Source of the DNA: Anadara kagoshimensis
Taxonomy: Eukaryota; Mollusca; Bivalvia; Arcoida; Arcidae
Length of the DNA: 64,000 nt
Assembly (NCBI GenBank): GCA_021292105.1
Contig: CM037874.1
Span: 23,681,534 to 23,745,533 of the forward strand
Direction of reading: 5' to 3'
Shown: piece after piece, positions 23,734 through 62,748 of the stretch
How positions within the stretch are numbered: position 1 is the stretch's first letter
Layout of the letters: each line of letters starts with the position of its first letter
Notes under the pieces: model-generated
Told to the model about the DNA's origin: nothing
Databases searched by the model: none
What the model saw: the letters and a program-made list of their open reading frames with translations, nothing else
Translations under genes and position numbers: made by a program

Positions 23734-23810
23734 ATGACAAAAGTACTTTTACCCTTTTTAATCGTAAGCTGGACAACGATTTTAACTGTTAACGGTTTAT
23801 TGGCAGGAGG
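23734..23810 (+). CDS. Exon 1: signal peptide
   Basis: The ATG at 23734 opens [19 protein letters not shown], a basic residue then a hydrophobic core and small residues (LLAGG), a typical secretory signal. Donor GTATGT at 23811. Confidence 0.8.
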
Positions 23811-24075
23811 GTATGTTATGTAATTCATATACGTTATATATACAAACCTCTTAATCATATTTCTCTTTTTTATTTGTATTCTACGTGTATTTTACTTATG
23901 CTGTTTTCATTTAGATTTTAAGTTTATTTTTGGTAGGTTTCAACTATGATTTAAATGCCTATATTTATGTTGTGTTTTTATTTTGCAGGCATTTTTATGC
24001 TCATTTAGTTGCATGTTAGTATTTTTAGAATTTTAGTTAACCCGACTAAAGGTCATATGAGCTTATGGATTAGCG

Positions 24076-26302: not shown

Positions 26303-29300
26303 AAAAGAGATATGAAAAGATAATTAAAATGATATTAAATATTAATGAAAATTAATCTGAATAATATTTTATATAAAAAACGGAAATTTGGGTTCTTTTA
26401 TTATTTGTTGTGACAAATAGATATAAATAAATAGATAAATAAATAAATTTCAAAAGAAATGTAAAATTATGTTTTGTTAAAGTATTAGTAATAGTATATC
26501 ATACTAAGAGCAAACACAAAAATAATTTTTTTTCTTGATCGTTTTCTTATTATTATGTTTATTTTTTATTTATTTTTTTTTCTGCTGAAGGAAATTGAAG
26601 TACCCAATGCTAAAAATACATAAATATATAAAAACACTAGAATTTACTTGTGATAAATCTGGGTAATAAATACAGTTCACTATACAAGATTCATTTACTA
26701 AATAGCTGGGATATCACCTTCTGTGTCACTTCCGGTTCTGTGCCCTTTTACTACCACAGGGAGATAACACCGTGTTTCAACAGTTTCAGGACTTTATTTT
26801 ACACCGTAAAATGACAGAAATGATTAAAACATGTTATTTGTGGCTAAATCGACTTTTTCTTATGTAATCTTTTGGAAAATAGTACTTAAAAATCGGTTTT
26901 TGGTGACCGGTGACCTTTAAACCTTTAACATAAAACCTTATTATGCGTTTATATTTGATTTTTTATCGAAGAATAAATGTGTGTACAGCTTATCAGAGAC
27001 ATTCGAGGACGACCAAATACAGCTGTGGATTGTTTGGTTGGTGGCGGTGTAGTAAAACAGTGTAAGTATATATGTCATTAGGTTCTTTGGTTTAAATGAT
27101 GAAAAAACCAAAATCATTGAGTTTATGGATAATTTGGTATGTATGTGTTCAATCACTTTTTGAAAATACCTATATTTGCCTTTTCTCTGATGTATGGACT
27201 TTTAATGTTTACATTTTATTCATCTACCAAATATGACAACCAACATGAATACATGGTGTCAACACTAGAGCGTTTCTCTTGCATCGCTTTGGAATGTAAC
27301 AGGAGATTGATGAACAAAATATGCAAACTTTTTCAAATTTTGTTCGAATCAACAGAACCTACAATTATAATCTAGAACCAAGTATTTTAAATACTTTGTC
27401 CAAGTATTAATGGAGTAATAGTTTTCAAGTTTCATTTAAACTATTTTAAATGAAAATTCATAAAGTTTTATGAAACTTAAATAAATATAGAAATAGATAG
27501 ACCGTATTGATACAACGTTCACAAATTTAATATTCTGCACTTAAATGCAAAATCAATAGTAGTTTGAATGTTGGAATAAATTGATATGTCTAAACATATA
27601 TATAGAGAGAGTTAAAATCGTCCTGTGCTAGACGTCATCAATGTTCTATTTGCAATATTTTGATTCACCCTATAATCAAATGTTTGCATTGAAATAAATG
27701 ATTTGATTGCTGTTGTACCATTTTGTGTTCATAAATAGTTTTTCTTTTTTAATTTTGTAGATATTATCAGGGTGCTAGCTACCATTGTTGCAGTGGATTC
27801 CATAGTAGGGATGACCAACATTGTGATTACGGTATAATATACATAAATATATTGACCGATGATAAATATTACAATTAAAGGGCTTTTGTATAATTTTGTT
27901 TGCCTATAACATATTAATTAATCGTTTAAACGTAAACGTGACAGGTATACATATTAGCATTAATGCTAAATATAACCATATATAATTACACAGAATGTAA
28001 GCAACAACAAAAATTGTAAAATACATTTTGACTCTGTGAACTAAAATTGGCCATAAACGTCAAGTTTTTAAACAAATGATAACAGTTATTATAGCCATAC
28101 GACAATGCCATTTCCGTTTGGCTTTCAATTTGAATATAGTTATGGACAAGTATTTTTAGGTATAGGTTACACAGATGAAAATGTCGTCTCTATCATTGTT
28201 TATTATTAACTGTGACTCCTAACACTAGCCATGAATTGCGTAGCTCCTTTACATGAATATTTTAAATAAAAGGTCAAGCGAATAGATCATTGTTGTTTGA
28301 CCGAACTACTTAAGTTCTGTCATCAATTCCCCTTTTAGTTTTGTTTTCCTAGTAACTCTGACGATTATTTGCAGCCAATACCTGTGGACATCCTGGTGTA
28401 ATACCCAATGGACATATAAGGGGAACTAATTTTGCACCTGGAGGAACGGTATATTACAGTTGTGATAATGGATATGAAATTGTACATGGAAGTCATAGTA
28501 GAACATGTCAGAAAAATGGGTTGTGGAGTGGTGTAAGACCTACCTGTCTAGGTAATTAACACATGGAAAAAATTTATTTTATAAGAGTATTTAGGAACAC
28601 ATATAAAGCGTTTTCCAAATTTGAGAATTTTTTTCCTACATACCATCAGGTTACTTGGTTTACCTACTAAAAGTTTCTGCAAGTTAAAATTTGAAATTTC
28701 TCAAAAACTAAGGTATACTCCCTCAAGCCAAGTATTTCCTTAGCTTAATTTGGTAAAATATATTTTGGTCCTTTGGGTAGCTTTTCAACATTTTTCAAAA
28801 TAATTTTGGTTTGATAATTTTGGTCCAAGCACTACTGATGAGGAATTGTATTCTGAAACGGCCGTCTAGTGCTGTAAAATTAAAACTGGTATAATATGTA
28901 ATTTACCTACTAAAACAAAGAGTACTCAGTCCCCGCGTTGACACCATATACACAATTAATATAATATAGTTTTAGGTATCTTTACCAAGTTCTTGAAAAT
29001 TGCAAATAATAAAGCATAAACACGCAGATACACCCAATGAGCTTGAAACAAAAGATACGACAGATTCTTTAGGCCCTCAATTATGACACCAACGAAATGC
29101 TTCATTTACAGCTATATGAAAAACGCGATGACTTCAAGTTTTGTCTATTTTCCTTTTTTGCGTTAACATACCTGCTTCTTATGCTATTGTATATCTGTTT
29201 CGGAATGAATGCATTGTGACTGAGCTAGTTCCCACTACAATTATTTAACACAAAGAAGTAGCATGCTTGCAAATATTTTGTTGACTCGGAGATATTCTTA

Positions 29301-32300
29301 TCAAGGTTTATGGTCGTCATCACAATATTATTGGGTCCCTGTATCCAAAATAAACCTAACCTGGATATATTCTATGCCCCATTGTTTTGTGTATTTTCAT
29401 TCATAATTTTGATAACACTCGCGGAGCCTCGTTTCTCTGGTGTAGGTGCACGCGTTGTCAGTCTTGAAAGTTTTTTTTTCTTTTTGCATCATTCTTTGAA
29501 CATGGACAAGTATGTAAGTTTTGAGTTTTGAAGTGACAAATTTATGTAGCTAAAGCTTTTTTTGTAAATTTACTCTAATAAAATAGCTCATCTTAAAGCA
29601 ACGCGTCTTTGAATTCATTATTTTATTCCAAAATTTACTTAATTATTTCACTAACTGTTAGTTTTCGGTTAAAAATTTAGTTGCTTTTCAGTCTTGTGTT
29701 TATTATTCTAACTCTAAATCTACGACGTGTACATTTGCTTAATACATATTTTTTATTATTATTGTGTCCTAATTTACCCGCCTGTTTTACTAGAAAACAT
29801 CGTGCAAAATTATTACTGAAATAAATTTGGTACCTTTTGCATTTTCTACAGTTGTAGATCCCTGCCTTAACAATGATTGTAGAAATGGTGCTTCGTGTGT
29901 TTTATCTGGCGGTGTTCAAATCTGTAACTGTGCTCCAGGGTGGCAAGGTGAAATTTGTCAGAATAGTAAGTAAAACGCTTTAGTCAGAACTGTTATTAAT
30001 AGACACTGACATACATGTAAAATTTATTATCCCATTCAGAAAAAAATCCTTTATTTCTACTGGTCAATTAGTAACATAGTATGGGGTTATATTAGGTCAT
30101 TACTGATTATCTCTCTTGCCCCAAACATATGCTGTCAGTACCGATTACGTCCCCTGAAACCTAGCCACAATGTCGTAGTCAAAGCGATTTGCTGTTTCTG
30201 CAGATGTACTAATATTTTGACATCTTGAATATCAAGATCTTTTGTGGGATAAATTCTTTCCACAGTAATTCAATGACCTAATACAGAAACATATGGAGTC
30301 ATTAAAATTCATGTTGGGCTACGCGATCTCAATCCCGATCATCTATGATACATACATTGTATTTTATTAATGTTAGTATTGTTAGTGACTGTTTTCCAAT
30401 AACATGCCTCCATTGCAATAGCTATTTATAATTTATAAACCGTGCATCAGTGTTGGCTGATTTGTTCTTTATTCTTATAAAGCAAAGTTTATGCAAAACC
30501 TTGTTGAATATAAAGAGAAGACTTTCGCCAAATCATTCAACTTCACATTCAGATATAAAGACGACGTTCTGTCTCTTAACAATCCTAAATGTAGAGAATA
30601 TGTGAATGCCATCTATCCTAGTGGGTTTTAAATAAATGGCACGACTGATTCCTCAAGTTTTGCTTAATATTTAGACTTATACCTCAATTATAACTTAACT
30701 TGTCAGTTCTCAAGTTTTTATTTTGCTTCTGAATTGTGATTCCGACATAGATTATTGTTTGTTTTTGATTATATTAAAAGTTAATATGGTGTTGTTTCAA
30801 AATGTCGGTCTGTTTTATCCTTCTGTCAGCATAAAATATCGTGGTTACATCAACATTTGCCAAGTACATTTGTAGCAGTTTTATCAATCTGTTTTATCTA
30901 ATTGAGGTTTATGAGCACTTCGGAAATATAGACCAATTTGTTTAAAAACAATTAGTTTCGAAATCAGAGTAAAAATGCACAGACTATCCATTCAAATTTG
31001 GTATTACTACAATTAGATCACTTATTGAAAAATATTATCTGAAGTGTTCATCTAAAGCTATAGAAAATGACAAGAGCACTTTGTGTCCTTTTTGTTAAAA
31101 ATTGGGGTGAAAAGAACAAATAGATGGTTTATTAAATAATGTGCTTATATTGTTTTAATAGGAATAGCATGCAGTGTACCAGACACTATCGAAAATGGTT
31201 ACATTATTGGGAATAACTTCCTTTTTGAAAGTAGCATAACATATGCTTGTAACCCGAATTTTAATTTGACTAATGGATACGTCACCCGTGTTTGCAAATC
31301 GGACGGAACATGGAGTGGATCCCGTCCTTCGTGTATACGTAAGTACTTTAGATACTGCTATTATCTATTTGATTCATACAATATATTGTAAGGTTCTATG
31401 TAGTAACTTGATGTTACCTCTACGATGTCGTGGGGTAAGATCCTTATTTCATCAACTATCTTGTTTTTTCTTGTGTTCTTGACCTATCATATATATTACT
31501 ACAGCTTTGTCAAATCAATATCAATAATTAAAAAATTATGATATGTTTCTTTTGCTGAATTGTTATTAAAACTTATAAATCTTTACAATAATCTGATAAT
31601 TGTTTTGGATTTTGAATGTTAGACAAGTATTTTCAATGACTTTTGTTTATATTAATAATGTATTGATTTTTTAGAATCCAATACATGTGTCAGTAGTCCA
31701 TGTCAAAACCAAGGGACATGTGTTGATGGTCTCGGGACATACAGTTGTATGTGTCCTCATGGATGGAGCGGAGTGCATTGCCAAAATGGTAGTTATATAT
31801 TTAATAATCAGTCATTTATTATTGATGATTAATTACAAATAGCCCTTATTGTTGCACGGTATCTATCAAATATTTTTCAATCATATTTTTTTCTTTTTAA
31901 CACATTACTGATTGGTTTAACTTTTAAACATGTTTTTGTATTTTTCCTGAATCCCATACAGTAAAGCAAGTTTCCTACCTTCAATAAATCATCAGTTAAT
32001 GTCTGTTGAAAAAGTAACAACATCCCTCAATTTCCAAACAGAAACGTCACCCTCTTGTTTAAAATCTAAAATCATTTGTTTATTATTTTACTGCAGTTGG
32101 TTTTACATATTAAGATACACCTTTTAATAAGACACGAAATTACGTATACACAACGTTTTGTCCACTTGTTGACAAAAAAACTTGTCTTTTTTTTTATTTT
32201 AAATTTAAACTGTTTAAATATAAAAAAAGCCATAAAATTCAATTATTTCGTAAAACAGTTAAACACTTGAAATTTTCAATCCAAAAATAAATATTTTAGA

Positions 32301-35300
32301 AGTAGTTGATCTGTGATGCAAATTTGATAAAAATATGGGATTGAAGTTTGATTTTTAAATAATACTGGAAACTGCAAAAGTACGTCCTAGGCAGAATTAT
32401 TAGAAAAAAAATGAAGATTATATGGTAAAATTGAAATCAGGTCAGAGTGATTATATTTTTGACTTTATAAACATGATTAATGCATTTGCTTCGTGTATAT
32501 TTTCTGTTGTGTATCTTTAATTCATTTTCCTTTTCCATTTTTGGTGCGTGTTTATGGTTATATTTGTCAAAGTTGACACCAGATTTTGAACAAACTCAAA
32601 AAATACCCGTGTTAAAATGGTCTAGTAATTCTCCTGACATGAATCCCATAGAAAACCTGTGGAATAATTTAAGAAAGAAAGTAGCTAAAATAATCATAGA
32701 TCAAATTCTAACTTTTTAAGCCCACGCAGAGTCACTGGTACGATAAAACAACTGTTTGAGTATGCCAAGACGAATAATGACTGGCGTCAAAGCAACTGCA
32801 GTATCAGCTAAATCATAATTCTCAGTTATGTATTTTTGTATGTATAAAAGCAGTTGTTTTATAAAATAATCCATGTCTCTTAAGTTCTTCTTAAATACAG
32901 AAACAATGGGATGACGTTTCTTTTTGGAAATTAAGGGGTTGCGTTACTTTTTGAACAAACCTGTACATACAAACACATATTTGATATGGTATACGTAAAA
33001 ATTAAATATTTGAACTCGTAATTTGTCATCTATTTTTACTACAATAAACAGGTACATTTATTGTTTTTGTAAAATGTTTACAGAGTTTAATATTCAATCT
33101 TGAATGTCTTTTGGTTATTAGAGCTAAGACTTATGTCAATATTTTAAATTTGCTTGTGTTTAATACACCCATATTAACACAAATACGTAACATTAATCCT
33201 TAGAATGATGAAACATTATACAATTGTATATAAATGTATATCTCTTTTGTATGTAAATTGTCTTATTGTCGCCCGGCAAGTGAAACAAGTGGCCCCAACC
33301 CTGGCACTTGACCATCCCCAATTCAATGTCTGGGACAAGAAAAACACAAATTACAACAAAAAAAACCAACAAAAAACACGGATACGTTACTTACCGACAC
33401 TTACAGTGCAAGTACGGCATGTCTTCTTCATATGTTTCTTCCTTCGCTGCAGTCAATGATATGTATTTATGTGCGGATACGATTTTGCTTGCACTTATGC
33501 TTACAACATTTTGATCTAGACGTGGATTAGTATCTGTGTTTGTTGACAACACATTAAACAATTCCAATCAACCCTGTTCAGGTCAATCGATCGTATTTAC
33601 TTCAAATGCCTGTTGGACACAATAAATATTATAAAATATTTTCTTTAAATGCATATACAATTAATACACTAGAACGACATCTACAGTCACACCAGAGACA
33701 GTAAGCTTTTTGGTTTACGTAATGACATTTCGTTTTTTCATTATTTAGATATATTAGCACCATCTGTTCTTGGATGCCAAAATGATGTTGTTGTTTATGG
33801 TTTAAAACCATTACAACAAGTCAATTGGACACAACCTGTTTTTGAAGATCCTAGAGGTGGACATATTGAAATCACAGCTAATTATGATACTGAATCTCAA
33901 ATGTTCCCGTATGGAACCTTCCAAGTGTATTATGAGGCAGTCAAACCAAATACTGGGATAAAGTCAACTTGTCAATTCGACATAACTGTTCAACGTAAGT
34001 GTTGCAATGCATAAATACACTTAACTCAACTACTGTTAACTATATTAAAGATAGGAATTTTCGATATACACAAAGAATGAATGATATGATGATACAATTG
34101 CAAAATAGAGTTAAAATGTATACATAAAATGTATGTATAACATTATTATAGGTTCGAGTTATTTCGATGTCACTATAGAATTGATGTAGTTACGTTTTAA
34201 GCATAGTCGATATACGAAACAAATATTTAAAAAAAATTAAACACGAAAGTGGCGATGGCCTATGTTCAAATCACAACCCAAAACAAAAAAGTAAAAGAAA
34301 ACAGTCAAGTTAACTTAATTTACAAAAGGAAAGAGTCATGGTACTACAAAATGGTTAATACAAGCTACAACCACCACGCATAAATTAAAATTAAAAATGA
34401 AAGGAACATGGAGCCCTGGGTATGGATAGGTCCAGGATAGTTTTGGATATAGAATAACCATCCCTATCGACAATAATGTTTTGACGGTAATGAATCGTTT
34501 TCAAGCCAAGACTTGCAATAACCCTGAGTAAAGCATTAGCGTAATGAGCATATTTTGAAATATAAACTTCCTAGTTTCATTGACCGTTCGAGGGATCTTT
34601 ATAAAATTTAATTATAAAAGTAAACAATTCCCTTTAACAATGAAATACTACAACTTGAATGCTTTTCCACAATAACTTTGATCTTGAGAATATTTTAATA
34701 TACAACTTTGTTCTTACATTTCTTCTTTTGTTGTGCTCTAGCTTACCCATGCGACGAGTTAAACATTCCACGTAATGGAGCACGTGTCTGTACAAATTGG
34801 AAAACAAGATTTGGAAAATTTTGTAAGGTGTATTGTCATGTTGGTTTTTCAACTCCAAACACAGATGCCAGTTCATTATTTGTATGTGGAGCGAGCGGAC
34901 ACTGGAAACCAGCAGTGTTGCTTCCAAATTGCACAGGTGAAAATTCAAATTCTACAAAGAAAGCTTATTTTTTCATATTTCAACCTTTGTTTCAATCATT
35001 TAAATTAACCAGATCTTTTCTGTTACGTTTACATGAATATATTGGCTCTCAGTGACGTCGTCTTATCATGAATGACGCACTGAGACATTTGAAATCCTGC
35101 GCTAGGATGGTTATTTTTTACTTTCTATGGCTATATTATTGTTGAAATGGTTGAATTGTGATCGATAATTTTCTATAAAATTAATTATAAGAAATCAAAT
35201 TATTTTTCGTTTTGTTATGGAAGTATGAAAGAGCATTTTGCACATATGTATTGTATATTGTAAAGTGCTGGTACAAAAAGATATTTGTTTATAAAATAAA

Positions 35301-38145: not shown

Positions 38146-38536
38146 TATTTGAGGTTTATATAGTTTTGTTTCAAAACGTCGGTCTGTTTTATATTTCTGT
38201 CAGCATACATCAAATATCGTGTTAATCGGCATTTGCCAAGTACTTTTGTGCCAGTTTTATCATTCTGTTTTTATCTAAATGAAGTAAGCGATAATTTCGA
38301 AAATATAGGCTGATATTTTTGAAAACATAGTTTGTAAATCAGAGCAACAAAATACACATTATATCCGTTCCAATTTGGTATAATTACAATGAGATCACTT
38401 ATAGAAAATTATTAAAGTGTTCATCTCAAGCCACACTACATAATATGGACACATTGTGTTCTTTTCTATTAAATAGTGGGGTGAATAGAACAAAAAGATG
38501 ATTTATTAATACCATGTGCTTACTTTGTTTTAATGG

Positions 38537-49900: not shown

Positions 49901-52900
49901 CGGATCCACATCGAAAATTTAAAATTTCTGACAACTTCTGTGTTTGAAACATTGATAGTTATGCCGTCTTGGGTTTTGTTCAAAAATACGATGTCAAATT
50001 CTGAAATTAAGAAGTGAAGCAGTTTTACGTGCGGTAAACATACTAATATATATTTGTCATACATGTAACTTCTTATTGCCATAAAAATTGTATTTTTTAA
50101 ATATTCTTTCCTAATTTAGCTTTGATAAGTTGTTTGTGTGTTTTCATTTTCTTTTTTTTTTTTTGTGTTCCATTGACAAAGTACATTCTTTTTCAGATTC
50201 AAATTTTAGACAATAACTTGTTCAGATTGTATTCTTACTTTTCATTTAAGGACAGAATCAATACTGAAAATACATTACAGGGAAATGATGGCATTTATCA
50301 ACCAAGCTTTGCAATGCCAATCACTTAAGCATAGCAGAATACATTTTACCTTAGACAACTGAATCAATATTGTGACTTTAAAACTTATATTTTTTACGTT
50401 TGTATAGCTGACACTTGTTAGTTAAATTAAAGGTTCTAGATAGATAATCTTTGTTTAGCTAGCTACAACCACCACGTTTGTAATAAAAACCGAGTATTGA
50501 AGGAAAATTAGAGTTTGAAAAGTCGAATATAATAAGGATAATTTTTATATAGAGAGACATGATAAAAATCATCCATCCAATTTACTTGCTGGTTAATATC
50601 TAAACCTTATGTTTAATAATAACCTTTACAATCAAATATGTTGTCTGCTCCTGTGAAAGAAGTGGTTTTTCCTTCATTACATTTGATGCATTCAGTAGAT
50701 CCTTCCTTGCTTTGATACGTCCCTCGATTGCATGGAATACAGGGCGATATACCATTAGCTGACCAATACCCAGGCATACAAGCAGCTTTAAATACAAAAG
50801 TGATCAATTGGACAATTAAGATTTACTTTTATCAAAAGACATATGCAATTAATAATTACTGACCAATGATAACCGGATATCATCAACCAAAAACGATTGG
50901 GTGTATATATTCTTTTGTAGTTTTCACCTTTTTATCAGAAATATAACTGATGTACAAGATAGTATATGATTGTTTTACAATTTGTCTCAATTTGAATTCC
51001 TACATGTTATACTTTAAAACAATATATATCCAATAATCAAATTATTTCTTTAAACCTTTTAAGTATTCACCTTAAACAGAAATTTATTTTTTGTAGTCTA
51101 GCTACTCAATTCCTAAACGCAACAGACTACGCCTCTCTTTGGACACAATTCACAGCACACCTAAGTGAACTACAAGAGTTGTAGCGACGCCCTGATAAGA
51201 CACTCATGTTTGGCGAATATGCAAATTGAGGTACTTGGTATATATTTTTATACCCAAAAAACATTCCTGAGCAATTTTGCTCTTATGTCAAAGAGCATTG
51301 CCATGTAATTAGGCAACATGTATTATTCTGGTTCCTAAACGCTTTTTCAGGTAAAAGGTTTTAACCATTATATAATTTCTGTACTCCTAAACCACTAGGA
51401 ATTCGAATTTGCACCACAGTATCGTTAGAATTCAAGAGCATTGGATATAAAACCTCGTTAGTATTGATAGGGCGTTTTGCAATTACAGGACATTTACTAT
51501 TCTACCGATCCATTTATTTATTTACCTATTTTTTAGGTTCAAAAAAGTGAATCCAGGTATTATCCTTTGTAAACAAACTAACTATGGTTCTACCTTCATA
51601 ATAACTGTATATTTCAAAAGTTGTTTTGCAATTTTGACACAGGATGTTTTTTGTTCGGGTGTCAACAAATATGGAATCCTTGGGCATCGACATCAGATCT
51701 CTAGTAAATAATTTAGAAACATTACCTGATGAATTACCTAATGTGTCAGAAATACATTTCACTGTATATCATCTATACTCTTTTATCATGCGTTTGATAG
51801 CAGCGATGTTTGCTTTTGTGCTTGCAGTTGTCGGTCGTCTAGAACATACTGAGCCATTTAGGGTCATTTTACTCTTTTTAAAATATTCAAACCAACTTTA
51901 AACCGTGGCATTAGGAAACCATAGACGTCCAATATAATTTACAAAGTTCGTTGAATAACTGGTAGGGTATTTTAATATTCTATCGACTATTATATATAGG
52001 CGTGTCTCATTTTACCTCTGGCTTCCTTTTCAAATGAAAGGTGACAAGTATATATGACTATGACTGTTGTAAATACACACGAAGGAAATGCGGGTATGTA
52101 CATGAAGCTCGTGTTTTGAACAACTTATCGATTTTTAATAACCTATATAATGTTTTAATGTTTATGGTATTCCAAGCATTTTAAAACTTTTGAATGACAC
52201 TCGTTATCGTGCTCAAACGTACATAAAACTAACTCATGAACTAATAGTTAGACAATACGTTTTTTACATGCAATTAACAATTGTTCTAAAGTCTTGTATT
52301 TGATTATCCGCTCGTGTTGTTTCTCAGTCGAATCTTTCATTATGAAACCTTGTTAATGGTCCTTATTAGTATAAATGCATAGTTTGTCACAAATAATAAT
52401 GGTCGTAGATAACATTTTAGTGCATCAATTTGTGACCCTTACTTTAAATGTTAATTGCGTTTAAAGATAAAACACTATATATACGTAGTAATGATGGATT
52501 TAAACGTACTTAAATTTTGTTATCGCAAACCCGTCTTGAAATAAGTGTTAATATTACGTCTTTCTGTTTTCATTAATGTTCAATCATTTTTCATTTGTAT
52601 ATTGAGCTCCCATTCTATATGTTTTCGTGTAATACAATATTAAACTGATATTTTCACAAATACCTTTGCAATCTTCATATTCTGTTGAACCAATATATTC
52701 AGTTGTAGTGCTAATAGGACATGTTATACAAACTTCGGCGTATGACTTGTTCTGATAACTCCCTTTAGGACAAAGAATGCATGACTTTGTATCCACATCA
52801 TAAAATGTTCCTTTCTGACATTCAGCTATGGATTGAAAAGAAATTTTAGTTTACTAAATTCAAAATTCATTTTTACAGATGAATTGAGTTCAAATTGGTC

Positions 52901-55900
52901 AATATTGTAAGTACAAAAGTAATTGAAACGATAAACTAAAAAGCAAATATATATGAAATATAAAGTATATAATGTCATTAAAAGCAACAAAAACCAGTTA
53001 ACAACAACAATTTAAAACGCAACATAATGAAATGGAATCCTTTTTTTAAATAAGTGTAGATCAATATTGAATGAGATTTGTTTAATTGGCCAGGCATTTA
53101 CAAATTAATATGCATTACCTTAGCAAAGACCAATCATAAGATTATATAGAATTAATGATTCAAAACAAACATCATACCGATCCACGTCTCAATAAAACGA
53201 ACTTAGCAAAACTGAACATCCAACAGAGAGGTTAAAAATCAATTATTCCTGTAAGGTAAGCACCTTCTGTTAATAAGCTATACAGTCACATGTAATGTAA
53301 CAAGAATTATACCAAAATAGAGAAATAAAATTTATAAAACATAACATACTTCAATATTTTGTCAACAATTGTTGTATTTAGACCTCACTTACCACAACTA
53401 AAGGTTGAATATGATGGAACAAGCCCCCTTGGGCAATGCAGTTCTGCTGACGTTTGTCTGATTTCTAAAGGTATAAGTTTTGTACTGTTGTTCAAAATTA
53501 TTTCGTAACTATCCGTATTATTTGCATTAATGTTTACTTGATTGAAAAAATCCGATAACGGTGACTTCGAAAATGATTTATCTGATATTAGTTTTAATTT
53601 GAATTGTAGTTCCATCATGTCGGCTGAACGTTTTTGTGTTTGTGTACCACATAAAACCTGTGAAAACAATATTGGTAGATATTGATAATGTATTGAATTG
53701 TATAATACAAGTCAAATATACAACCTTATGTGGCAAACCAATTGTGAATATGAACGCAAGCATTTTAAAAACTGAAATATTATAGATTAACAATATCTAT
53801 TAGTGCCAGTCATTGACAAGCGTTCTCAGTTCACAACATTAATACAATAAGTAAATCGGCTATCTATCTATTAAATGAAACACATTAACGTGGTTGAGCG
53901 TTAAATGTATCAGAGGTACACATGAAAGTAATATGTTTTTTGGTCGAAACAATCAGTTGTGCTATTAACATTTGCCTTCTTTGCACCGCGAACTATCCGG
54001 AAAATTGAATAACAATACAGTAGTAAATCTACAGGCTACTACGTTCCCAAAACCCGCTTAATACATTTTCCTTACCTGTACGTTTTCTACTTGACATTTA
54101 TCTAAAATCGCCTTGCATGCTTGACTGTAAAGAGAGTCTTTAAATGTCTTGATGAAGTTTTCTTTAATTTCAAGCTGGACATTTGCCTCATTGCAGTTCC
54201 CATCAAAGAAATAATGAATAGATATTGACAATGAAGCGTTGGACACAGGTGTTAATCCTGAAACAGTTATGATATAATGATATCCCAGTGAATATATCTT
54301 ACTTTTGTAGCAAAGCGTTGAAGTTACCAAATACATCTACTTTCTGAGAAATATGTTTATGACAAAAAGGGAACATTTGCAAATATTTAAATCTTAATTA
54401 TTCGGATATTATTGTTTTAGGTGGTTAATAAATTACATATTTGCCTGATCAATACTTGAAATTTGATTACTGTGAGCTTTATAACTAAAAATAAAAGGGC
54501 AAGTCTAAAATTTTTAACAAACAAAAGTTTAAAAAGTGACACATATTTCTGCTTTAAGTAGGTTATTGGTGATATCACTGGCCTAAAAGGAATAAATCAT
54601 GATTGATTGACATGTGATCTCAAACGGGTTATCAAACAAGCGAATAGTGAATAGTGAGATCATAGAACGTTCTTTTTCGTTTAAAAATGTTACAGGCGGT
54701 TTTTGACTGTGAATGATTAAAACCATATGTTATTGTCTCCGGCAATTGGAGACTAACGAAGTAAAACGCTTTTGAAATAGGGAATCATTTAGAAGACAGG
54801 CAATTTGATGAGTTTGATTGGCTCCGGCAATTGGAGACTAACGAAGTAAAACGCTTTTGAAATAGGGAATCATTTAGAAGACAGGCAATTTGATGAGTTT
54901 GATTATAAATTGCGAGATTCTATCTAGCTGTAAATTTATCACAACCCGGACCAGATTAAAGTTTGCATACAAATAACGATATATATTTATGCACCGGTAC
55001 CTCTGGTTTAATGTTTATGCAAAACATACATTACTATTATAATAATAAACCACAGGCACTTACTTGTACAATCAGGTATATTTGTGCTAGGAAACCATTT
55101 GCCTTCCTCTGAACACACAAACATTTGATGCATTCGATAAGCTGGATCAATGTTATATCCTTTACGACACTGCATTTGGCAAAATTTACCTCCAAGCCAA
55201 TAATCACATGCTAGTGCACCGTTAGCTGGTGGATTTAACTTGAGGCTACATATTTCCATAACTACAATTTTTTAACAAAAGGCTAATTAAATAAATTATT
55301 TCCTGAGTTTATAAAAGCTATAACTTGTTTTTATTTACTTCCATTATCAATGGTTTTTTTAATATATAGAAAGAGAGAGTATATACTAAATAACCATCTA
55401 TAAAGTTGTATAGTATACATTTTATTATTGATTTGTATTACAATGCTGTCGAATTATGATATTTCATGTTTGCTTTACAAAAATAAAAAAATATATATAA
55501 ATGGCTAATTGGTTTTGTAAATTAATCAATACTGTAAAAAGTACCTATAGTATAAAAGAGATTATCCAATGCAATTGGCATAGTCGTGTTTCTTTTTTAA
55601 TTGTTTGTCCCTTTGAGCTAAAAAGTAGCACGGATGTGGCTACCAGAACTTTTAGACGCGCGCCACTGTACATACAGTAGAGTATAATCAGTGATATCGA
55701 ACACCCTTCCAGAACACCTGGCCTCACTTTCCTGGTGGAAGTTTACGTGATAAACTGAACTTGCCAGTTTAAGAAGTTTTTACTTTGTTTTGGAATTATA
55801 GTTAAGACGTTGATTGGTATTTTTGTTTGTTTTGATTTGTGTTTTCATTTTCTAAAAGTTCTGTCTTGTTTTGACATAACTGTAATAAGTGTTATTTCAT

Positions 55901-58900
55901 GTTCTTAATTGCGCTTTTCCACTATATCCTCTACGCTACGTTTTTCTTTCTGTATTATCATATGAACACAGCTAACATAATTAAATGGGTTTTCTGTTGT
56001 CTGGAGTTAGGATTAACATTTTAGTTTCCTAGCAAATTTTACTTACTTTCACAGTAAGGTTCAAAGTCTCCCCAGCTCCAAAACCCATATAACTCGTCAT
56101 GTTTTTTCTCGCACATAACTTCTGATGGGCCTCTAAGCAATGAACCGTCTGCACACTCATATTGACATGACGCCCCGTATCTGTTTCCATTTTCGCAAAC
56201 TATTTTAGTATATGGTTTGTCGAACAACTTTGGGCAAGTTATTTCTACAGGTTACACAAATGTCATAAAAAATGAAAGCACAAAAAGACCAGATTTATAA
56301 ATTTACAATATAAGAATACAGTTTTTAAAAAATGAAATATTAACCTTAAAAGACATTTTAGCAAATATAAAAACTAAAATTCCGTGTCAAGTAATTTCTA
56401 GCTTATATTTTATCCAAACTTCATATAGAAACAACTGTGATATAACACATGAAAATGAAAATAAAAATACGCATAGATTGGAATATCTGAAAGGATAAGC
56501 AAATTAGTAGCAAATCATCCAATATTTACATTATAGCTTTGAACATGTTTACTACAAATTCTAACCATTGCTTTCAGGGACTAGTTCCTTAAGAGAAGTT
56601 TAACGCATGAACGAACAACTACCGACGAAGTTTAAATGGAACTGGATTACAAGTTAAAGATTAAACGTTTATTATGTAAATAAACATAAAACAATTTAAA
56701 TGTAATGGGATTTAAACATTTCATTGATACATACATTTTCGTAATTTTTTTAATTATCAGTACTCGATAAGACATTCAAATATACTCACGCTTGACAATA
56801 GTTTTTATATGACACTGTTTAGCTTTATTACCAGCCCTGTCAGTTGCAAGATATATTGACACATGAGAACCCGTTTTCACAACGCCACCTCTTCTTGGAC
56901 CAGACAACAAACTTGATGTGATTGGCCCGTCCACGTTGTCTGTGACTTCCGGTTCTGTCATTTCCAATTTTGTTGTATCTTTGTTTCTATCAGCATACTG
57001 AATATAAGTTTCCGTCGGACAGTTTGACCATTCTGGTGGCAAAATATCTGAAAACAAAAATTTCAATGAAACTTTTTCATTTAGTTTGTTTGTCTTTAAT
57101 TTATTTAAAATATTAATATCACTTTTCCTTTTAGATATATGAACTCAATTGTATTTAAAACTAGAGCTGTTTCTAAAGGAGACTAATACCTCCACAGACC
57201 CGCGATCTGGAATCGATAAATACAAGCGGTTCATGTATCACTTAGCTATTTAAAATTTTAACTAAAAACAATGAATAAAGAATTTACTAATAGAGTATAA
57301 AAAGAATTTAGAATTAAAGTAAGTTTTCAGCGGACACGATATTGTAACGGGAAAAAAATAAAATTTGACCTAGTGATCTTGACTTCAGACTTATGCACAA
57401 AAATAAGGTATGTGACACGTCGTGTCATGTTGGTTTACGTCTGTGCCAAATTTGATTAAAATCCATGATAGATATGGAGCGGTCACAATATTGTGACGTG
57501 ATAAATAAGATTTGACCTCATGACCTTGACCTTTAACCTTTACACATAAATTTAGTATGCGACATATTGTCTCATGTTGGTTTACATTTGTGTCAGGTTT
57601 GATTTATCCCTATATATAAAAGATGTAGAGCGGACACCATATTGTGGTGGAAAAACTAAGATTTGACCTCCTGACCTTGACCTTTGACCCATGTACATGA
57701 ATTTGGTACGCGACATATTTTCTCATGTTGGTGGTTTACATTTATGCCAATTTTGATTAAAATTCATCCATAGATATGAAAGATATAGAGAGGACACGAT
57801 ATTGGGACGGACAACCATACAGACAGCAGACAGGTTGATTCCTATATACCCCCTAAACTTCTCGAACAGGAGAAGTCGAGTCAAACCTTAAACCTTTTAA
57901 ACCAATTTTAAAAAATGCCCTTTTGTGAAGATTGACTGTGTTTCACGATCACTTTTTACATTCTCCATTAAAAAGTAACACTATATTAAGGTCACTGTCT
58001 ATAAAGCCACTAGTAGTGATGTTTGTATACAACTTTTACTGTATTTAATTTAAAAGTAACTATCTCCTAGTGTTTATTCTTACATGCTTCAGATAATGTT
58101 TGTTTTAAATCTGATTAAACACATACCTTTGCATGTTGGCTGATCACTGCTCCATTTACCGTTTGACTTGCAGTATAATACCTTTGATTGGTCGTCGGGT
58201 ATACCGTAACCATCGTAACAGCCGTAGGTGCACCTGCTGCCATAATAGTTCTTATCGGTGCAATTAACCTCGGTTTGAGCCGAAGTTATTATTAATTTAT
58301 CGCATTTCACCCCTAGAACATAAATATTAATACATGGGCCTTAATTGGTGCTCATCTGAGAATATGTTCTATATTTTTATGCAGAAGTTCAATTACATTA
58401 TTTATAGACAACATGTGAATTAGATGTAAGGCTTCAAATGGAAATACTACTTTGTTAGTTTCATCATAGTTCTTTTGCAATGCACTTGACATTCAGAAAT
58501 GAGAGCCCCGGGGTCCTCCGGAAGCGAACTCAAAACCAAGGTTTCGTGTCACGGCATGTATGGCACATAAATATCCCTGCACATTGCACTGCAAAGATAA
58601 AATATCTGTCATTTTATGTATAACTCATGTTTCGATATAAGTGAATATTTCTTAACTGGAACGTAAGACTCAATTTAATCATTCTATCAATTATCGATGA
58701 ATAACCTTAGACTAAAAATAATTTTTATAAAATGAATGTAAAATGCCATGGTTATGGTTCACTGTACGGGCCAAATTTGCATTATCGCTTCTTCACCTGA
58801 AGTCATCGTAACTTTGAAGGGGAAATAAAGCCAATTTAGCCCTTACAGAACACCATTATACGAAATCAGAACATTAAACATACTTTGACATCTAGGTATA

Positions 58901-61900
58901 GAAGTTACGTTCCAGCGTCCATACTCATTACACTCGAATTCTGAACTTCCTATCACATTATATCCTTTATAACAACTAATTCTGCATGTTGTTCCATATA
59001 TCCTGGTATTGGCAGGTAAACACTGGATATAACCACCAGTAATAGATCCAATAGGTTTACATTTCATTACTGAAACAGAGATACAAAATAAATACGATGG
59101 TCTGACCAAGACTTGAAAATAGATACCTACTGTTCCTTTGCAAAGTACTCAGTATTTAGAAATAAAAGTTACGAGGTCCTTTGGAAGGGAACTTAAAATC
59201 CGAATTCCGTGGATGACAGGCATGACAGGCTAAAGAACAGTCCATCCACAATGCCCTGTGCACACTACAAAGATCAAAATTTCTGCCATTTCACCAATAG
59301 CTGATGACGTTTCGATAAACGTGATTTTTTTTATTCGGAAGTATAACCTCAATGAAACAATCAATCTGCAGCTAGATTAAAGAATGTTACTGTTATTAAG
59401 TCGATGTAGCTTTTAAAACGTTTTAAAAACATTAAAATAACACAATAATGCAAGTCGCATAAACACATAAACAAGTTTTTTCGTAGAGTTAAGTTCGTTT
59501 ATTGAACCGATGGTCTCTACTGCAAGTAAATGGACGACGATATATCAAAATACGACCATTCGGAGTAATTCAAATTTGCATTTATAATTTCATGTTTAAA
59601 TTCATATTTGTTTAATTATGGTTTGGCATACATCATTTTTAAAATCTTTTCCTATAGTGAAATGGTTTGTCTTTTTCGCTTAAGTTATCTAGCCTGACAA
59701 AGGACAACACGCAGAGGTAATAAAAATATTATAAATAATGCCGATAATTTCATCAACAGAATAAGCATCTAGAATTGAGAATAAATATCACTGTTTAGGA
59801 ACGATTGGAATTTACATGTTAGACATTGAACTCAAACCTTATGTGAAAATGATAATAATTTCAATATGTATAGTGCGTCAAGTGCGACTTTGTCGTTTCA
59901 AGTTTGATTTAAATATTCAAACTGATATACCCTCTATGTAATTAAAATACTATGTAAAGTTATGTAAGGATATATATAGTAATACATGGTACCGGGTGTC
60001 TTGGCACATGCTGTCTTACCTAAATAATCAAAAATGAAAATACTAATCCATATCCGAATCACAATCTAGAAGCAAAGTAAAATCTTTGGAACTGACAAGT
60101 TAGGTTATACACGTGAACTTCCACCAGGGAAGTGAGACCGGGTGCTCCGGAAGGGTGTTATCAAAATTGTGTGAAAGGAACATAGTCTATTATTAGCCCA
60201 ATCAAGTTTTCAAATCAAAGGTCAAACGGCTAGGTCAAACTTAAAGCATTATATAAATGGATCTTGCATGAGTGTTTATGTAATATTTAGTATTAGATTT
60301 ATCAAATGAGTTGCATTAACATTTTACTTAATAAGTTTAATAAATTCAATACATGTGTTACAAAACCATAATTCGCAACCGGCTACAATATGACGTCATA
60401 ATATGTTATCGCATAACATCGTTTCCCATTGAAACACGAGTTATATTACACCTGTATATTATGACTTTTATAATAAGGATTATTGTACAGATTTTTGGTT
60501 GATTATACAATAAATGCATGTATTTAGCAATGATTATGATGGTTTAATAAATAACATGTGTAGAAAAGTACCTTTGACATTGATATTAAAATCACATTTC
60601 CCTAAATTTCCAACTCTATCCAATGCATAATGCGATGCTTTGGTTGTTCCTTCAAAAAATATACTACCAGGAGGCCTTGGGCTCGTATGGACGCTGAAAG
60701 GAAAAAATATATACCTTTATGTTTACTTCTTGTTCCATAAGACACAACAGCACGTTGAAGTTTTACCGTTTAACTTATCTTTTAAGCCCACCACTGCCTT
60801 TATGGTCAGTACAATTTTACCTCAAATGACCTTTATTCATATGCCTGATGAATAAGGAAGGACCTATTGATTAGCTTAGCTACACCCGCCACGTGTGAAA
60901 TCAAAATGGAGAAAATAAGATAATGGGATACGGAAACATCATACTTGTCAAAAATGTTGCAATTTTGCAACGGCGGCCATTTAGGTGCCTTGACCAGCCC
61001 TTTTCTTGTAATATTCCTGGCCAATTAAAAAACATACTTATTCATATCCGAATCACAATCCATAAATAAAGTAAAACCTTTCCTACTAAGAAGTTAGGTT
61101 AGACACGTGAACTGCAACCAGGGAAGGGAGAACTTACCCTAGGAAAGTGAGTCCGGTTGCTCCTGGATAGAAGTTAACTCTTGTTTAGCTAGCTACACCC
61201 GCAAGTGTGTGAAAGGAACATGGAAATATTGGACGTCAAATATATTCAGGGCAATCCTGGACACCTCATCAAACTTATCAAAAATACTGTGATGATGACC
61301 ATAACACTTTTTGAGGTATTAGTCTAAATATGAAACAGAACTTCAAGAAGCAGTCGTATCTTTTATTTCGAGCTAACTAGGATAGATGACATTCACATAA
61401 TCTCCAAATTTAGAATTGTTAAGAGACAGAACGTCATCTATATATCTGTATCCAACTCATTTTTAAAATAAAAATTATGTGCTATTTATAAAATGCAGAC
61501 AACAAAAGTATAAACAGAAATGGATTACACTCAGTTATTTGTCTCTAAAACAATTATTACTGAAAATATTTTATTTTTTCTTAATAAAATATATTAATAA
61601 TCAACCGGCCTAATATGCACTTTAGGCTTCCATAATGCATAGTTTGCTATAATCCAGCTTTACTGAGAAAAATTTCACAATTTCTTCAATGATGAAAAAT
61701 TAACAAAGTCTATTTACTCCGCCTTTTTCCCATGTAAGGCATAGCGATAGTTCATGACCTTTTTTCATGATATAACCAGTTTATTATGCAAGGAAGACTA
61801 ATCAACCATGTGCTCTGCCCTGTATTAAGGCCAAACCAAATCAAGTTCTGTTTAATGTTATTTTACCATAATGCATTTTAAAGAAATTTCCGCTATGATT

Positions 61901-62748
61901 CAGATGGGAAAATGCTTATATGAGCAAGTAGATATATAGAGGGAAGTTAGATATGTATCTGGAATTAATTTTTTTAAATCTCTGAAATATACAGAGATGT
62001 ACATCTCAAACCTAATACTACCCATTTACCCGTAGCTTAATTAAGCAATGGATTAAAAACAATTAGTGATACGCTTATGGTTTTGTAAACAGTTAAATAT
62101 AAACATGTATAAATTGCATTCACTTCAAATGCAAGTCATTTTGCAATTTACCTGACAGTTGTTGGATCTATGTTACTTTCTCCATAACCTTATACACAGG
62201 TGTTTATTTTCCTTTGGCCTCATTTGGGTGTCATAAAGCTGTTGTCCAGTCTATAAGTCAATCACCTGTGACACCTTTTAAACTTTGAATAAAACACATA
62301 GTAAAAAGGGTTGGGTTTGTCATAAGAGGTGGAGTCAAAAACTTAGATTTTTTCAGCTTGAACATTTTTGACAAAAATTTACACTATACAGAGGCAAAGT
62401 CTCAAGCGATAAAAAACTCAAACCATTATGATAAATTAGGCCGAGTCTTGTTATATACACAGCCAAATTTCTGTTTCTCATCTTCAACTAGTTTTTGAGA
62501 AAAATCCATAAAACTGAGTGTAACCATTTCTGATTATACTTTACCAATAAAAAGACTTAGGATATAATGAGATATTTCAACACAATTAGGTTACTACGAA
62601 AACGCCATATCTACTAACGTAAGCCGATTAAATACGCCATTGTCATCTACTGTCGGTAACTCCCAATGGACATTCCGATACAATTTCATTCTTTTAGCTG
62701 TACTATTTACATTGTTGCATCCAATAAGCACGGGTGGCGATGAATCAG
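40883..62748 (-). CDS. Transmembrane SVEP1/Polydom-like modular receptor (23 exons, 5' end outside window)
   Basis: Twenty-three exons from 62748 down to 40883 join in frame to about 1,406 residues plus stop. Domain order: HYR, CCP, CCP, HYR, CCP, CCP-like, Cys module plus linker, two ephrin-receptor-like repeats, pentraxin/LamG, two EGF, TSP1, CCP-like, second Cys module plus linker, ephrin-receptor-like, HYR, juxtamembrane linker, one transmembrane helix, short basic tail. CCP-HYR-CCP-ephrin-like-pentraxin order is that of SVEP1/Polydom, an extracellular adhesion protein. The TSP1, second half-array and membrane anchor are unlike the vertebrate protein as I know it. Most exons are phase 1-1. 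The first codon of exon 62619-62748 is split, so more exons lie beyond 64000. A cell-surface adhesion or recognition role is inferred. Confidence 0.87.
41546..41593 (-). CDS. Juxtamembrane mini-exon
   Basis: 48 nt, phase 1-1: NTEEIKTKEFQYLDAG joins the HYR exon to the transmembrane exon in frame. Acceptor TATTTTAG, donor GTATGA. Small but supported by frame on both sides. Confidence 0.75.
41594..42583. other. Intron, no feature seen
   Basis: AT-rich intron between the HYR exon and the juxtamembrane mini-exon; no repeat family or exon recognised. Confidence 0.5.
42584..42841 (-). CDS. HYR domain exon (membrane-proximal)
   Basis: DGSCPENITIFVDIKS, VSWAEPIPVDNSEDPP, IHYMATDKSGNNSTCKFYVH: complete HYR with D-x-S-G-N before the last Cys. 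Phase 1-1. Confidence 0.92.
43553..43708 (-). CDS. Ephrin-receptor-like (GCC2/GCC3) repeat exon
   Basis: PCGEGKYHDGTGCKKCDYGQ, YQSENGQVMCSKCPKNYTT, then NECI: the C-x2-G-x-Y ... CxxCxxGxYQ ... CxxCPxxxTT pattern. Phase 1-1. Confidence 0.9.
44175..44357 (-). CDS. Second Cys module, linker exon
   Basis: Begins GPEVCGKSLIEAV and ends ITCPEGNEKVSYYC. The closing CPxG...C matches the end of 53393-53657, in both cases directly before an ephrin-receptor-like repeat. Phase 1-1. Confidence 0.85.
45118..45387 (-). CDS. Second Cys module exon
   Basis: Contains C-x25-C-x5-C-x9-C (from GLIC through SRHC), the same overall spacing as 54076-54257 and 35563-35738, then MMSCDPNQ. Unnamed family. Phase 1-1. 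Confidence 0.85.
45511..45625. repeat. Foldback (hairpin) repeat in intron
   Basis: Arms of about 40 bp: ATAAAACATGGTGGAATCCA and following pair with the - strand of the sequence ending near 45621; the loop is about 35 bp. A 20-bp perfect palindrome (GTCTGATATCGATATCAGAC) lies downstream at 45859-45878. Confidence 0.8.
46202..46411 (-). CDS. CCP-like exon
   Basis: TCRHWDAPDNASLVCVN, INCTLTCNEGFEFD, YYFCGPSTFHLWEF, RIPSCN. Six cysteines, as in the other CCP-like exons that directly precede a Cys module. Phase 1-1. Confidence 0.87.
46412..46981. other. Intron, no feature seen
   Basis: Nothing recognised between the TSP1 and CCP-like exons. Confidence 0.5.
46982..47152 (-). CDS. Thrombospondin type 1 repeat exon
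   Basis: NGSWTEWNEWSHCSSSC gives W-x-x-W-x-x-W plus CSxSC, then RIRFCNNPPP, GGANCQGN and ENCVIQPC: six cysteines of TSP1. Phase 1-1. Confidence 0.95.
47407..47476. repeat. 31-bp-arm hairpin in intron
   Basis: CATGTCATATCGGCCCGAGA and the following 11 bases at 47407-47437 pair with 47446-47476 with two mismatches, around an 8-base loop. It shares words (GATATTGGTC, CATATC) with the foldback at 45511-45625. Confidence 0.9.
47917..48147 (-). CDS. Two calcium-binding-type EGF domains in one exon
   Basis: First: FNECLNTTCKFGQCIDMLND, LCVCDFGFTGIDC. Second: NIDDCVANICENNASCIDN, YDCLCEDNYKGEYC. The second begins D-x-D-D-C like a cbEGF. Phase 1-1. Confidence 0.94.
48205..48400. repeat. Dispersed repeat C copy in intron
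   Basis: Contains AGTAGTACTTGGACCAAAAT, AGAAGGACCAAAATG and TACCCAGTGCAATACTTTG, matching the copy at 24528-24735. Confidence 0.65.
48505..48690 (-). CDS. Pentraxin/LamG domain, third exon
   Basis: FTGKISQMNIWSVNAS, TCKNNDPGDILSWKQF: the G-x-(I/L)-x-x-(M/V)-N-(I/M)-W and ILxW end of pentraxin domains. Phase 1-1. Confidence 0.88.
48691..49398. other. Intron, no feature seen
   Basis: AT-rich, no recognised repeat. Confidence 0.5.
49399..49550 (-). CDS. Pentraxin/LamG domain, second exon
   Basis: SWNLISLTVYKGNVSFKVNN and NSKLYIG; enters in phase 2 and leaves in phase 1, joining neighbours in frame. The codon shared with the previous exon is Cys (TG|C). Confidence 0.88.
49796..50000 (-). CDS. 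Pentraxin/LamG domain, first exon
   Basis: FDIVFLNKTQDGITINV, FKFSMWIRLADMSDQ, DDGTTNVGIVYY: start of a pentraxin fold, with SMWIR equivalent to the C-x-WxR of pentraxins. Confidence 0.87.
50001..50623. other. Intron, no feature seen
   Basis: The + strand open frame 50122-50328 has no domain. Confidence 0.5.
50624..50785 (-). CDS. Ephrin-receptor-like repeat exon
   Basis: ACMPGYWSANGISPCIPCNR, GTYQSKEGSTECIKCNEG, FDCK. The donor GTTATT is weak but is the only one that keeps frame. Phase 1-1. Confidence 0.88.
50786..52663. other. Intron, unassigned open frames
   Basis: A 78-codon - strand frame (51526-51762) containing NILCQNCKTTFEIYSYYEG is not assignable. It has no splice context matching the receptor and is not called. 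Confidence 0.4.
52664..52825 (-). CDS. Ephrin-receptor-like repeat exon
   Basis: AECQKGTFYDVDTKSCILCP, KGSYQNKSYAEVCITCP, YEDCK. Standard repeat. Phase 1-1. Confidence 0.92.
53393..53657 (-). CDS. First Cys module, linker exon
   Basis: Starts VLCGTQTQKRS (carrying the last Cys of the C-x25-C-x6-C-x8-C signature) and ends HCPRGLVPSYSTFSC just before the ephrin-like repeats. Phase 0 at the 5' side, 1 at the 3' side. Confidence 0.87.
54076..54257 (-). CDS. First Cys module exon
   Basis: From GNCNEANVQLE to ILDKCQVENVQ: C-x25-C-x6-C, with the fourth Cys in the next exon. Donor GTAAGG in phase 0. Confidence 0.88.
54737..54906. repeat. Exact 85-bp tandem duplication in intron
   Basis: CTCCGGCAATTGGAGACTAA begins at 54737 and again at 54822; the units appear identical apart from the very ends. 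Confidence 0.93.
55064..55261 (-). CDS. CCP-like exon before first Cys module
   Basis: MEICSLKLNPPANGALAC, GGKFCQMQCRKGYNI, MFVCSEEGKWFPS, IPDCT. Six Cys; closest in layout to + strand exon 8 (34742-34936). Phase 1-1. Confidence 0.9.
55680..55820 (+). repeat. Dispersed repeat B fragment in intron
   Basis: CACCCTTCCAGAACACCTGG then CCTCACTTTCCTGGTGGAAG. Confidence 0.75.
56047..56244 (-). CDS. CCP domain exon
   Basis: ITCPKLFDKPYTKIVCENGN, GASCQYECADGSLL, VMCEKKHDELYGFWSWG, PYCE. Six Cys. Phase 1-1. Confidence 0.9.
56245..56789. other. Intron, no feature seen
   Basis: Nothing recognised. Confidence 0.5.
56790..57047 (-). CDS. HYR domain exon
   Basis: PPEWSNCPTETYIQYAD, MTEPEVTDNVDGPIT, VSIYLATDRAGNKAKQCHIK: typical HYR with ATDRAGN. 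Phase 1-1. Confidence 0.94.
57320..57850. repeat. About 130-bp tandem repeats with TGACCTTGACCTTTGACC
   Basis: Four imperfect units, each with GAGCGGACACNATATTGTG, AAGATTTGACCTCNTGACC, TTGACCTTTGACC and GCGACATATTNTCTCATGTT words (N where units differ). The repeated TGACCT half-sites include a DR1-like arrangement at 57672-57690. Confidence 0.85.
58127..58312 (-). CDS. CCP domain exon
   Basis: VKCDKLIITSAQTEVNC, GSRCTYGCYDGYGIPD, VLYCKSNGKWSSDQPTC. Six Cys, Trp and Pro conserved. Phase 1-1. Confidence 0.93.
58500..58680 (+). mobile_element. SINE fragment in intron
   Basis: GGTTTCGTGTCACGGCATGT, ATATCCCTGCACATTGCACT and TTTCGATATAAGTGAATATT match middle and 3' parts of the SINE at 6046-6365. 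Confidence 0.55.
58884..59069 (-). CDS. CCP domain exon
   Basis: MKCKPIGSITGGYIQCLP, GTTCRISCYKGYNVIG, FECNEYGRWNVTSIPRC. Phase 1-1. Confidence 0.93.
59130..59350 (+). mobile_element. SINE fragment in intron
   Basis: Carries the GCAAAGTACTCAGTATTTAG, GAACTTAAAATCCGAATTCC and AATAGCTGATGACGTTTCGA parts of the same SINE family; the tRNA head is missing. Confidence 0.6.
59351..60571. other. Intron; reverse repeat B core at 60030-60185
   Basis: 60030-60185 is repeat B on the - strand (AAGTGAGACCGGGTGCTCCG, GAAGGGTG). A family A end fragment (AAAGGTCAAACGGCTAGGTC) lies at 60218-60237. The rest shows nothing. Confidence 0.6.
60572..60693 (-). CDS. HYR domain, second half exon
   Basis: VHTSPRPPGSIFFEGTTKAS, HYALDRVGNLGKCDFNINV. 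Enters in phase 2 and leaves in phase 1. Confidence 0.9.
61022..61470 (-). repeat. Dispersed repeat B, reverse copy in intron
   Basis: Reads in - orientation with AATCCGGTTGCTCCTGGATA-like core variants, TATATTCAGGGCAATCCTGG and TCTATATATCTG landmarks. Confidence 0.7.
61508..62546. mobile_element. DNA element with about 45-bp inverted ends, in intron
   Basis: The left end AAACAGAAATGGATTACACT, CAGTTATTTG is the inverted counterpart of the right end ACTGAGTGTAACCATTTCTG. TATA flanks both ends. About 1.04 kb, no transposase frame. Confidence 0.7.
62619..62748 (-). CDS. HYR domain, first half exon (most 5' exon in window)
   Basis: SSPPVLIGCNNVNSTAKRM, VHWELPTVDDNGVFNRLT. The donor GTTAGT (after ...CTTAC) is the choice that makes a Thr codon with the next exon and keeps HYR register. 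The acceptor TTATTTTCCAG is close to a SINE tail. The first codon is split, so the gene continues upstream. Confidence 0.88.

Follow-up and report, generated by a model that had tools for sequence, protein, structure and literature searches.

Polydom/SVEP1 has a role in vertebrate lymphatic biology and, as far as the available portion of one report goes (PMC10281526), is assembled from VWA, Eph-like, HYR, STT2R, EGF, PTX and CCP domains; the mouse protein is cut into an N- and a C-terminal part, and cleavage products of 115-kD and 270-kD are reported. In Nematostella, the available sections of a second report describe four shorter polydom-like sequences having EGF-Sushi-HYR-TKE in common, without VWA and pentraxin domains and with TSR or Ig-like extras, together with one Sushi-HYR-TKE sequence called 'polydom-related' (PMC12549020). 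Among molluscs, SVEP1 is named in a table of a Mytilus tissue RNA-Seq study, itself available in part (PMC4581086). Here, we describe a 64,000-nucleotide stretch of Anadara kagoshimensis contig CM037874.1 (hereafter the window) that carries two modular genes, one on each strand (the plus gene and the minus gene), arranged tail to tail.

The best explanation, to which we assign a probability of roughly 65%, is that both genes belong to the polydom/SVEP1 family as divergent, non-canonical members. Judged by its domains, the minus gene appears to possess the polydom core without being a canonical polydom, and the plus gene would be closest to the short polydom-like forms of Nematostella. The computed basis comprises the architecture and phases, most of the domains, a transmembrane segment, the paralogy of a CCP domain and an adjoining unnamed cysteine module, the absence of any sign that inverted copying took place recently, and a damaged direct copy in the gap between the genes.

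Two modular genes and their predicted products

Both gene models represent predicted splicing throughout. The plus gene opens with an ATG at 23734, and 62748 marks the start of the first exon recognised in the minus gene; the stop codons, at 35738 and 40883, are separated by 5,144 nucleotides. These coordinates agree with the initial annotation, which had proposed two modular extracellular genes lying tail to tail about 5 kb apart, the one on the plus strand encoding 448 residues and the other at least 1,400 residues with a membrane anchor. The predicted minus gene (62748-40883) has 23 exons and encodes at least 1,406 residues, its 5' end being open beyond the window. Junctions are in phase 1, except for those within HYR1 and between jelly-roll exons a and b (both phase 2) and the one within module A (phase 0). 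The order is HYR-CCP-CCP-HYR-CCP-CCP-module-Ephrin_rec_like x2-jelly roll-EGF x2-TSP1, then CCP-module-like-Ephrin_rec_like-HYR, a transmembrane helix and an 8-residue tail. Every exon listed here and below stems from the gene model; further support is given in brackets.

62619..62748, minus: HYR1, first half, the first exon recognised in the window (Pfam)
60572..60693, minus: HYR1, second half (Pfam)
58884..59069, minus: CCP1, six Cys (Pfam)
58127..58312, minus: CCP2, six Cys (Pfam)
56790..57047, minus: HYR2 (Pfam)
56047..56244, minus: CCP3, six Cys (Pfam)
55064..55261, minus: CCP4, six Cys, best within-window match of plus exon 8 (phmmer, tree)
54076..54257, minus: module A, first exon (phmmer)
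53393..53657, minus: module A, second exon, with the fourth Cys and then QKRS
52664..52825, minus: Ephrin_rec_like 1 (Pfam)
50624..50785, minus: Ephrin_rec_like 2 (Pfam)
49796..50000, minus: LamG/pentraxin-like jelly roll, exon a (sub-cut-off Pfam, E 6.9e-4)
49399..49550, minus: jelly roll, exon b (sub-cut-off Pfam)
48505..48690, minus: jelly roll, exon c (sub-cut-off Pfam)
47917..48147, minus: two EGF domains (Pfam)
46982..47152, minus: TSP1 repeat (Pfam)
46202..46411, minus: CCP5, six Cys, no Pfam match, grouping with CCP4 and with CCP3 of the plus gene (phmmer, tree)
45118..45387, minus: module B, first exon, resembling the module only in its Cys spacing and position
44175..44357, minus: module B, second exon
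43553..43708, minus: Ephrin_rec_like 3 (Pfam)
42584..42841, minus: HYR3 (Pfam)
41546..41593, minus: short linker exon, a weak call whose skipping keeps the frame
40883..40986, minus: last exon, with transmembrane helix, tail HRRRMKHK and stop (hydropathy)

Pfam families were accepted above their curated cut-offs, and the copies of each were then counted down to E 10. On this count, the minus protein has four Sushi, three HYR, three Ephrin_rec_like, one TSP_1 and two EGF domains (EGF at 22.0 bits, cut-off 21.5). The domains that had been called six-Cys CCP-like are CCPs, four of the five in the minus gene falling under Pfam Sushi and CCP5, which has no Pfam match, being reached by phmmer from CCP3 of the plus gene (E 0.0013). 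In the PDB, the CCP1-CCP2 pair matches chains of CR2, beta-2-glycoprotein I and E-selectin (4c16, E 4.8e-10), the first two scoring better. Selectin CCPs have six Cys; unlike selectins, the present protein has no C-type lectin domain among its Pfam matches. Between 42583 and 40701 on the minus strand, exactly one terminal exon combines an acceptor, the phase-1 frame, a 20-residue hydrophobic stretch, a basic tail and a stop, a combination found in none of 300 dinucleotide shuffles, although its terms were fixed after the exon had been seen. An AATAAA lies 134 nucleotides beyond the stop. One intron of this gene holds a near-perfect (99%) 85-nucleotide tandem duplicate at 54732-54901.

The predicted plus gene (23734-35738) consists of nine phase-compatible exons encoding 448 residues with no internal stop; its first junction is in phase 2 and the remaining seven are in phase 1. 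A leader is followed by CCP-EGF-CCP-EGF, HYR, a six-Cys CCP and half of the unnamed module.

23734..23810, plus: exon 1, carrying the ATG and a presumed signal peptide (leader by eye)
27761..27831, plus: exon 2, short Cys exon (no convincing Pfam match)
28375..28551, plus: exon 3, four-Cys CCP (Pfam)
29852..29965, plus: exon 4, EGF (Pfam)
31162..31338, plus: exon 5, four-Cys CCP (Pfam)
31675..31788, plus: exon 6, EGF (Pfam)
33749..33994, plus: exon 7, HYR (Pfam, 24.2 bits, cut-off 21.7)
34742..34936, plus: exon 8, six-Cys CCP (plus CCP3), reciprocal best of minus CCP4 (phmmer)
35563..35738, plus: exon 9, initial part of the unnamed module, with the stop directly after the fourth Cys (phmmer)

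Counted in the same way, this protein has three Sushi, two EGF and one HYR domain, all of families above the Pfam cut-offs. No 19-residue window of it has a mean hydropathy of 1.8 or more, and no transmembrane-like terminal exon was found on the plus strand in 35564-40800. The EGF2-HYR intron contains, at 32477-32716 on the plus strand, a DDE transposase-like fragment (DDE_3, E 2.5e-4, short of the cut-off).

The end of the plus model merits a word of its own. Module A has a phase-0 intron near the equivalent place and a donor-like AATGTTAGT stands at 35720, which together raise the idea that the model stops too early and that its last exon splices onward through this weak donor in phase 0. 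Profiles of the second part of module A and of Ephrin_rec_like, run over 35738-40800 on the plus strand, gave nothing better than E 4; the stop sits directly behind the fourth module Cys, and an AATAAA follows it by 182 nucleotides. A premature end is very unlikely on these grounds.

A probably old relationship and a later direct duplication

Exons of the two genes were aligned pairwise and scored against 300 Cys-preserving shuffles each, and phmmer was run against the 2,100 six-frame open reading frames (ORFs) of 20 residues or more in the window. CCP3 of the plus gene and CCP4 of the minus gene, the CCPs that precede the modules, are 40% identical (25/63, z 10.0) and are reciprocal best matches in phmmer (E 2.6e-11 and 2.8e-11). 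The plus module and the first exon of module A share 17 of 56 residues (30%, z 5.8): with the plus module as query, the minus-strand ORF 54061-54336 comes first after the query itself (E 2.1e-4), and in the reverse search, with module A exon 1 extended by 14 residues from exon 2 as query, the plus ORF ranks directly below the two exons of module A itself (E 6.4e-5). A tree of nine short CCP rows places minus CCP4, minus CCP5 and plus CCP3 together with modest support (80/85) and long-branch warnings.

The HYR domains are less clear. The plus HYR scores z 6.6, 2.2 and 5.1 against HYR1, HYR2 and HYR3, the minus HYRs score 4.2, 8.8 and 9.1 among themselves, and phmmer finds no significant partner for the plus HYR among them (best E 0.63, or 0.058 from HYR1); a tree of four short rows gives no resolution. 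Exon alignment, which the initial annotation had proposed as a check on its own idea, pairs the CCP and module exons, with no sister relation demonstrated for the HYRs. Its statement that both genes contain an HYR, then a six-Cys CCP, then the same module holds for the content, but two CCPs separate HYR2 from module A. The CCP/EGF alternation of the plus gene's first half is not seen in the minus gene, even if single EGFs resemble each other, and the two four-Cys CCPs of this half (exons 3 and 5) are mutual best matches (z 11.3).

These results bear on the suggestion that the minus gene encodes a receptor and the plus gene its soluble partial copy, a decoy that competes with it for ligand. One product does have a transmembrane segment that the other lacks, and a CCP and module exon pair is common to both. 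The identities of this pair are, however, 40% and 30%; the HYR of the supposed copy has no significant partner, half of the plus gene is a CCP-EGF-CCP-EGF arrangement of its own, and the common part makes up little of the minus ectodomain. The 'partial copy' description is not supported, and we consider a decoy highly improbable.

Nor does the proposed unequal inverted duplication, by which the plus gene would have arisen recently as a partial copy of the minus gene in inverted orientation, fare better. The opposite strands and the common exon pair, alike in order and phase, are what it would produce. When 23600-36200 and 36200-41000 were compared with the window by blastn, only repeat-like sequences recurring elsewhere in the window were matched in the minus gene's stretch, and no intron sequence was common to both genes beyond repeats. 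Together with the protein identities, this indicates an old split rather than a recent copy, and the one later duplication that can be seen is direct. A recent inverted copy is scarcely credible; an old inversion with subsequent divergence is possible. From the alignments, the last two plus exons and CCP4-module A appear to be old sisters, and the relationship between the genes is probably one of old paralogy.

The later duplication lies in the gap.

38062..39360, plus: damaged direct copy of plus-gene stretches 30691-31437, 31541-31614 and 34048-34475 (blastn, alignment)

Its three segments, 38062-38803, 38842-38916 and 38934-39360, copy these stretches in that order at 80.6%, 86.7% and 71.4% identity (blastn). 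They include one damaged CCP exon (38537-38711; 159/175 identical to the plus-gene exon), whose intron flanks are 82% and 91% identical; the stretch after HYR is 79% identical. Where the gene has its acceptor AG, the copy reads GG; the 3' end of the copied exon is shifted by two single-base gaps, and its Trp codon has changed to Cys. The copy is without the stretch corresponding to EGF2 and HYR; most simply, the copy has lost it, and a gain by the plus gene instead is possible. By its sequence, the middle of the plus gene appears to have been copied into the gap in direct orientation and the copy then damaged. The remaining matches in the gap, which recur elsewhere in the window, are likely to be dispersed repeats.

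Elsewhere in the window, tRNA-like stretches on the minus strand at 7122-7184 (Rfam tRNA, 38.1 bits) and about 63095 (a box-like motif) are perhaps derived from short interspersed elements; ARAGORN calls no tRNA gene. Stretches matching BTB_2 (E 4.3e-23) and Ion_trans (E 2.7e-26), at 4421-5017 and 7652-8740 on the plus strand, belong to what we read as a voltage-gated potassium channel-like gene, and overlapping ORFs with repeated peptide units at 1015-1762 on the minus strand point to a tandem repeat.

The unnamed cysteine module

Pfam returned nothing for module B and the plus module, and a chance-level match for module A (MSG, E 0.11). A profile built from the plus module and module A exon 1 had no PDB match at E up to 10; when module A was searched with its Ephrin_rec_like domain, the module part matched at chance level only (WTAP, E 0.39), module B being left out of the PDB searches. 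A structure model of the plus module has two helices and a mean predicted local distance difference test score (pLDDT) of 67, its best PDB match having E 3.6; that of the module B exon (mean pLDDT 40) is unusable. An SEA-like topology was considered by eye, and Pfam gives no SEA match.

Homology of module B to module A finds no support in the sequences: the first exons, second exons and whole modules score z 0.2, 1.8 and 1.1 against Cys-preserving shuffles, module B against the plus module scores z 1.4, and ungapped comparisons score z -0.4 and -0.5. A profile of module A and the plus module does not list module B at E up to 10 (hhalign probability 0.4%), and module B is absent from the nine best phmmer matches printed per query. 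A Cys-spacing pattern, defined post hoc, occurs three times in the two proteins and twice in the six-frame ORFs, where one is missed because module A spans a splice; by chance, it occurs 0.01 times per shuffle on average (2,000 shuffles). Module B is kept as module-like only on this spacing, its position and the type of CCP that precedes it.

Could the module be a processing domain of the polydom family, with the plus gene encoding a ready-made fragment of the kind that cleavage of the minus protein would yield? The minus ectodomain has only four KR/RR sites, and modules A and B carry one each, in both cases KR, 6 and 7 residues past the fourth Cys. Since the plus gene stops at this Cys, it would correspond to the fragment that cleavage just beyond would release. 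Mouse polydom, too, is itself cleaved (PMC10281526, available portion). Against this, no R-x-[KR]-R site was found and the observation is post hoc. The furin consensus has arginine at P4, which the module sites lack. The plus module has an RR of its own at residue 433, between the second and third Cys. We regard this proposal as distinctly doubtful.

Family membership and possible roles

The SVEP-like label proposed in the initial annotation is supported as regards the architecture; the minus gene is not a canonical polydom. By Pfam, the minus gene combines HYR and CCP in one protein and has Ephrin_rec_like (STT2R/TKE) repeats downstream of this core. It resembles vertebrate polydom/SVEP1 in its CCP, HYR, Ephrin_rec_like and EGF domains and, weakly, its putative jelly roll, as far as the available portions of the reports describe that protein (PMC10281526, PMC12549020). 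It differs in its transmembrane helix, its TSP1 repeat, a jelly roll placed before the EGFs and a second CCP-module-like-Ephrin_rec_like stretch; a canonical polydom is secreted and has a long CCP tail, which this gene lacks. The plus gene has the EGF-Sushi-HYR content of the short forms without VWA and pentraxin. The Nematostella members are like the present genes, as far as the window goes, in lacking VWA, in their EGF-Sushi-HYR-TKE base and in extras such as TSR; they differ in that the plus gene has no TKE and the minus gene has a jelly roll, and the available sections mention no membrane anchor (PMC12549020). No membrane-anchored polydom member was found in a limited literature survey, which included PMC6993872, and no paper was found joining HYR domain, mollusc and sushi. 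A 482-residue stretch of the minus model, compared with viral and prokaryote contigs, gave 2 and 9 pattern matches, none of them confirmed.

Several points weigh against membership of the family. The window shows neither a VWA nor a long CCP tail nor a large array of EGFs; a VWA may lie 5' of 62748, and no further exon was recognised in 62749-64000, which was read by eye without a VWA profile. The jelly roll reaches Laminin_G_3 at E 6.9e-4 and 20.2 bits (cut-off 27.6), with no pentraxin family listed. The plus gene is without Ephrin_rec_like in Pfam, with nothing better than E 4.9 downstream on that strand. Homology of module B to module A appears to lack sequence support, the CCP and HYR trees have nine and four short rows, and the module is not tied to any named polydom. 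The claim that the plus protein is secreted with its own signal peptide holds as regards its 448 residues without a transmembrane segment, but its leader was recognised only by eye.

The two genes might instead be unrelated mosaics assembled by exon shuffling, having acquired the CCP and module pair separately, with the polydom label overstated. The exons that encode domains are mostly symmetrical (1-1), a type that is readily moved; the absence of a demonstrated sister relation among the HYRs and of a VWA in the window would fit as well. Yet CCP-module-Ephrin_rec_like occurs in this order twice in the minus gene, if module B is taken as module-like, and the CCP preceding each module is of one type in the tree, as an inherited block would predict. 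Such mosaics are unlikely, if worth keeping in view, and two divergent family members remain our preferred reading.

On that reading, the minus protein would be a single-pass, membrane-anchored polydom relative presenting CCP, HYR and TSP1 surfaces, possibly in cell-surface adhesion or matrix tethering. Its tail of eight residues argues against a self-signalling receptor; signalling, if any, would need a partner because the tail is so short. The plus protein, presumably secreted, may be an independent component of matrix or body fluid, by analogy with the Nematostella forms, and the two products need not interact. Unusual features are the membrane anchor and the possible doubling of the CCP-module-Ephrin_rec_like block. 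If our reading is true, a membrane-anchored member of this kind beside a short secreted paralogue would show how far this family has diversified, at a time when short polydom-like genes are now being described in cnidarians (PMC12549020, available sections), and the two genes give a handle on a cysteine module that lies outside the coverage of Pfam.

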